Positions 31,315 through 31,437 of a DNA stretch of 40,061 nucleotides are shown here, piece by piece. This DNA comes from Candidatus Omnitrophica bacterium CG22_combo_CG10-13_8_21_14_all_43_16 (lineage in GTDB: Bacteria; Omnitrophota; Gorgyraeia; Gorgyraeales; Gorgyraeaceae), in assembly GCA_002771475.1 (NCBI GenBank), contig PCTH01000001.1, forward strand, positions 1 to 40,061. The letters are read 5' to 3'. The translations under genes and the position numbers were made by a program. Each line of letters starts with the position of its first letter. The stretch's first letter is position 1. The notes under the pieces are model-generated. The model saw only the letters and a list, made by a program, of their open reading frames with translations, did no database searches and was not told the origin of the DNA.

Positions 31315-31437
31315 TGTCATTGCGAGGCCGTCGAAGGCGGCCAAAGCAATCTCAAGAGATTCCTCGCTTCGCTCGGAATAAGTTCGGTCATATAACTTAC
31401 GTCTGCCTTCGGCCTCCGTAAGTTATGGCCTCACTTA
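31315..31437 (-). repeat. Family-1 composite palindromic element overlapping the 3' end of a response regulator gene
   Basis: tgtcattgcgaggccgtcgaaggcggccaaagcaatctcaag ... ataacttacgtctgccttcggcctccgtaagttatggcctcacttat. Confidence 0.85.

Follow-up and report, generated by a model that had tools for sequence, protein, structure and literature searches.

The 3' end of a response regulator gene in an Omnitrophota genome raises the question of where the last residues of the protein and its stop codon come from, and how the hairpin repeat found there came to lie at the end of a gene. The gene lies in the window, which is the whole stretch of 40,061 nucleotides that was analysed, and its product ends in MEKISEAITYGGRRQT. 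The boundary between gene and element, ATAAGTGAGGCCAT (31425-31438, minus strand), is read as ATA AGT GAG GCC ATA, with the first bases of the repeat, TAAGTGAGGCCAT, at 31437 (minus strand), and the TA of the Ile117 codon ATA already consists of repeat bases. After Ile117 come AGT GAG GCC ATA ACT TAC GGA GGC CGA AGG CAG ACG and then TAA, so that the open reading frame is extended by 12 codons within the hairpin and stops in the 3' arm of the inner stem, CGTAAGTTAT. It is clear that the sequence-only reading of this DNA was exact in stating that the copy is entered in the one frame that avoids both TAA and TGA. Element-free orthologs of the regulator have other C-termini, such as KIRIAIEGER and KIKISMGEQK, and because they end differently the further claim that the repeat provides the C-terminus and the stop is borne out; in this copy the native tail has really been replaced. 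The coordinates of the features are collected in the table.

Table. Features of the hairpin element and of the response regulator locus, in window coordinates.
Feature	Position	Strand	Basis or remark
Left-end hairpin module, 66 nt, TAAGTGAGGCCAT..hairpin..GACCGAACTTATTCCGAG	31372..31437	-	Covariance-model match, 88.1 bits, E 2.9e-15
Rest of the element at the regulator locus: middle hairpin (TTCCGAG..CGAGGAATCTC) and right-end hairpin (GAGATTGCTTTGG..CCTCGCAATGACAT)	31315..31371	-	Sequence; other copies of the genome with the same module order
Response regulator, receiver domain only, 129 aa	31397..31786	-	ORF; Pfam Response_reg at residues 6-117; codons from Ile117 on repeat-derived
Element-coded residues: final two bases of the Ile117 codon, then SEAITYGGRRQT	31400..31437	-	Translation against element boundary; absent from element-free orthologs
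Stop codon TAA, element position 39-41	31397..31399	-	In inner-stem 3' arm
Short spacer before the ATG of the next regulator at 31290, with Shine-Dalgarno AAGGAGA	31291..31314	-	
Copy on the stop codon of an ABC transporter ATPase gene	15696..15761	-	TAA frame, protein end unchanged
Copy on the stop codon of an OmpA-family gene	5606..5671	-	TAA frame, protein end unchanged
Copy beginning 13 nt past a called stop TAG	21390..21455	-	
Weak copy	26946..27007	+	Model match, 48.6 bits, E 7.8e-7

The Pfam match of the regulator ends at residue 117. In the AF2 model, helix alpha-5 covers residues 110-123, with the element-coded SEAITY as its end, and the final GGRRQT is unstructured (pLDDT of the last block 63). 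Given that the helix is predicted to reach residue 123 and that only unstructured residues follow it, the new C-terminus looks harmless. The upstream gene's own tail, now orphaned, may persist in the spacer before the next regulator, to judge from a likeness by eye to TGCGATAGAAGGGGAAAGGTAATGG of the ortholog in genome G008.

The closest named relatives of the regulator locus are Candidatus Omnitrophota MAGs. The repeat is absent from the orthologs of eight congeners, which have other C-terminal ends, and the ortholog of a further family member (G012) likewise has another end and no repeat; G008, the sister of the window genome (support 98/92), is among the genomes with an element-free locus. 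In the G009 and G001 orthologs the element is reduced to its first 30 nt or so, as far as the apical GAA loop, and this remnant still codes for the regulator tail ISEVITYGGRKN and is joined in frame with a native gene end that overlaps the next ATG, a join that could be due to microhomology at GAA. The two fragments, 97% (G009) and 90% (G001) like the window copy, are the closest to it of all those compared. At these two orthologous regulator ends the element-coded tail has survived the loss of most of the element. Both one old insertion followed by loss or recombination and separate insertions are possible histories for the three genomes.

The element is a composite of hairpins. A stretch of 141 nt in the window folds better than 200 of 200 shuffles (z = -4.55), and a composite query gave 27 blastn matches in the 1.23-Mb window genome, where a covariance model, built from six aligned copies with an assigned structure of 23 pairs, finds seven strong copies and one weak. 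Inverted pairs are common, with a left end TAARTGAGGAC..GTCCGAAYTTA, a right end TTAATTCGCAC..GTGCTCATTAA and another hairpin between them; the right end in the window genome is of another type, ATTGCTTCG..CTCGCAATGACAT. Complete copies carry terminal inverted repeats (TAARTGAGGAC on the left, GTGCTCATTAA on the right) and lie between codirectional genes, with the right end near the Shine-Dalgarno sequence or start of the next gene. Separate ATTGCGAG..GAAGCAATCT hairpins, of the same kind as the right end of the window element, occur at 285-318, 5538-5575, 15565-15660 and 17333-17370 of the window. Other inverted and direct repeats of 44-64 nt, 92-100% alike and unrelated to the hairpin element, are found at 18359-18706, 22688-22837 and 39992-40055.

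The position of the copies relative to genes was determined for 142 non-redundant copies, classed with our own codon-score gene caller, 92 of which are left ends, from genomes of the class, with an upstream gene on the same strand. The stop of that gene falls on element positions 1-3 (TAA) in 52 cases and on the TGA in 16; in 6 it lies deeper in the element, in 2 at odd offsets, and in 16 it precedes the element. These counts are not independent because of the gene caller used and because some copies are orthologous. Half of the 16 copies with an upstream stop have a T-rich stretch directly 5', several of them clearly following an intrinsic terminator, and only four genes have their stop within 60 nt 5' of the element. 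Five copies with the first bases TTAATGAG sit directly 3' of T-rich stretches that follow the upstream genes, several of these stretches being clear intrinsic terminators. For the 48 copies on the opposite strand, the called start lies 1-15 nt away in 16, at or inside the element in 14 and farther in 18. At element-free codirectional junctions 258 of 899 TAAs are stop codons, and the observed placement would therefore not result from a mere liking of the element for spacer TAAs. The rule holds, more weakly, in a second set of 14 other genomes, partly of other classes, with 11 stops on the TAA, 3 on the TGA, 1 at +4, 3 deeper and 13 upstream; 13 of these 31 left ends thus come after, not on, the called stop. 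The right ends of this set lie mostly 9-15 nt ahead of a start codon. Location at gene ends, as had been supposed, is therefore seen in the counts of both sets.

Of 21 genes with a TAA-frame copy that could be compared with an element-free ortholog, three self-matches having been taken out, 17 have the identical last residue, and the ABC ATPase (..EKFKM) and the OmpA-family protein (..KKYKK) of the window are examples of such unchanged ends. Normally, then, the repeat begins precisely at the native stop codon without altering the protein, the regulator copy being an exception. Copies in the other frames usually alter the tail, as in G009, where VIQNDGTAK has become VIQNK, and in a kinase-linked receiver of G010, where KINEFLGGKNG reads KINEVLTYGGQRST with the element; two TGA-frame copies keep the length of the protein. 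A third-frame copy of G010 (L111:8558-8623) occupies the homologous alpha-5 position in the receiver of a hybrid kinase, where the element-free G005 has ATAAATGA.

It had been proposed that the element inserts at many sites near gene ends and that stops have evolved in all its frames to close any entry. The capacity itself is real, all three frames being shut by nucleotide 45 in 78% of left-end copies versus 19% of mononucleotide shuffles, and entry in all three frames does occur, including TGA-frame and third-frame copies. Frame use is nonetheless uneven (52:16:6), the proteins of the main class are unchanged, and the stem's in-frame TAA is part of a conserved TTACG/CGTAA core and can be a by-product. 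The replaced tail in the window and the placement of copies at gene ends are borne out, but tolerance through closure of any frame is not supported as the general mechanism: it is a minor, secondary property, it was rejected as the main driver on account of the uneven frames and unchanged ends, and the proposal as a whole is very unlikely.

The hairpins covary. Across 139 distinct copies, 98.7% of stem cells are paired versus 25-39% with slid partners, and both sides have changed in 22 of 23 pairs; these pairing figures are somewhat inflated because the alignment was fitted to the structure. Tandem G-A/G-A mismatches adjoining the outer stem are 94-96% conserved. G.T occurs in only 44 of 3094 stem cells (1.4%), a scarcity for which the fitted alignment probably does not account. 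Constraint at the RNA level normally passes through G.U, and the near-absence of G.T in covarying stems therefore suggests that the structure is maintained as DNA. This bears on the possibility that the copies are functional intercistronic mRNA signals that protect the 3' end or control translation, and that they stand at stops because selection retains them there and not because they prefer to insert there. Such signals would account for the strong structure and for the fixed location between stop codon and Shine-Dalgarno or start, but, besides the rarity of wobble pairs, orthologous junctions work without the element, some copies lie 3' of terminators and the copy number varies from 0 to 67 among genomes of one genus, which makes this explanation improbable. 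A known RNA family was ruled out as the identity of the element, the Rfam search of the window having returned nothing at gathering scores.

Matches at E <= 0.01 were found in 32 of 39 genomes, most of them from the same class, and 47 of 117 genomes of the phylum Omnitrophota have a match at E <= 1e-6; none of 30 genomes of other phyla has one at 1e-4. Phage and plasmid collections gave no blastn match, and an origin from either was rejected on that ground. The differences in copy number, together with filled and empty sites, point to an element that is mobile. In comparisons of filled with empty junctions, the insertion sites are often TAATG or TAA-Shine-Dalgarno junctions, which suggests insertion at TAA. 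TAA stands at both ends of 28 of 49 complete elements and in most of the others the left and right triplets are unequal, which speaks against a plain 3-bp target duplication.

The observations are probably best explained by a small non-autonomous, MITE- or REP-like family of hairpin arrays of Omnitrophota, with the left end placed exactly on the upstream stop codon. The left end, TAARTGAGGAC, comes to rest on that stop, and in full two-ended copies the right end, GTGCTCATTAA, adjoins the Shine-Dalgarno sequence or start of the next codirectional gene. The leading TAA of most copies serves as the stop and leaves the protein unchanged. With TAA as the likely target, insertion at an out-of-frame TAA within the last codons would make the gene read on. 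In one frame it gains Lys and TGA; in the other, about 13 element-coded codons up to the TAA of the stem, as at the window regulator, with SEAITY completing alpha-5. Weighing against this explanation are the unequal end triplets of many complete elements, the 13 left ends of the second set that come after a called stop, the many opposite-strand copies that are not near a start, and the lack of any mobilising enzyme or autonomous copy at the loci covered.

As for the way in which the element moves, transposition as single-stranded DNA, of the IS200/IS605 or RAYT type, would have the inner triplet (positions 57-59) guide the element by pairing with the target triplet beside the left end. In 50 non-TAA copies the outer triplet covaries with the inner one (2.90 of 3 pairs versus 2.12 when shuffled, maximum 2.40), the hairpins are of DNA type with conserved tandem G-A mismatches, and 35 of 39 relatives have Y1 transposase matches. 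This covariation may, nonetheless, simply be that of the hairpin's own stem, and the distribution is unfavourable: G003 has two Y1 matches and zero copies, G026 has copies and no Y1, and no copies lie near the examined Y1 genes. These mismatched patterns speak against an association with Y1/RAYT, and this route is rather unlikely. Twelve Y1 loci have no model match and the two Y1 loci of the window genome have no motif; two wide inverted pairs contain ordinary genes only, which speaks against an autonomous element within them. At the loci covered, neither a transposase or other mobilising enzyme of the element nor an autonomous copy was found. A further reading, in which a DNA-hairpin mobile element recognises stop codons (strand-specific TAA, perhaps via the complementary inner triplet) and enters operons between stop and Shine-Dalgarno with both proteins intact, is a tentative and rather unlikely possibility.

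Several known repeats resemble this family. MIRU elements are described as inserting at start codons and as coupling an internal ORF to the next gene (PMC12548453, citing Supply et al. 1997). They share with the present family short length, apparent mobility and a location at gene junctions with little damage to neighbours; the Omnitrophota element differs in abutting a stop codon with its left end, in being a hairpin array and in using no internal ORF, stops being present in all its frames. The enterobacterial RU-1, RU-2 and RU-3 are small repeats of which one at the 3' end of a gene gives a C-terminal tail and stop, as in E. carotovora ECA3499 (Delihas 2007, PMC2759123). RU-1 thus adds a tail that homologs lack, as at the window regulator, a shared effect and not a proof of descent; sequence and host group are other, and stop-codon precision is not described for RU in the part of that paper covered. 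REP elements are extragenic imperfect palindromes (PMC2817692), and REP/REPIN likewise show compensatory changes and many copies per genome, but for the Omnitrophota element no association with Y1/RAYT was found, and its left end is tied to stop codons. MITEs, for example in Coxiella (PMC5896051), are also short, non-coding and scattered, with inverted terminal sequences; the Omnitrophota element differs in having neither a parent insertion sequence nor a clean target-site duplication shown. Given the insertion of MIRU at gene junctions and the extension of proteins at the 3' end by RU-1, the effect is of an already known kind, and the element, which behaves like both, is a distinct family marked by stop-codon precision. 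Searches of the open PMC literature, outside which most subscription journals lie, found no description of the repeat, and both the precision and the hairpin family appear new within the open literature searched.

From empty site to full copy to partial scar, the regulator locus offers a clean series that shows a conserved protein acquiring its C-terminus from repeat DNA. The family illustrates how a selfish repeat can spread where genomes are compact, by settling precisely at the point at which translation stops. If it is true that this precision reflects target recognition and not selection, such a rule of targeting would be unusual among the mobile elements of bacteria.
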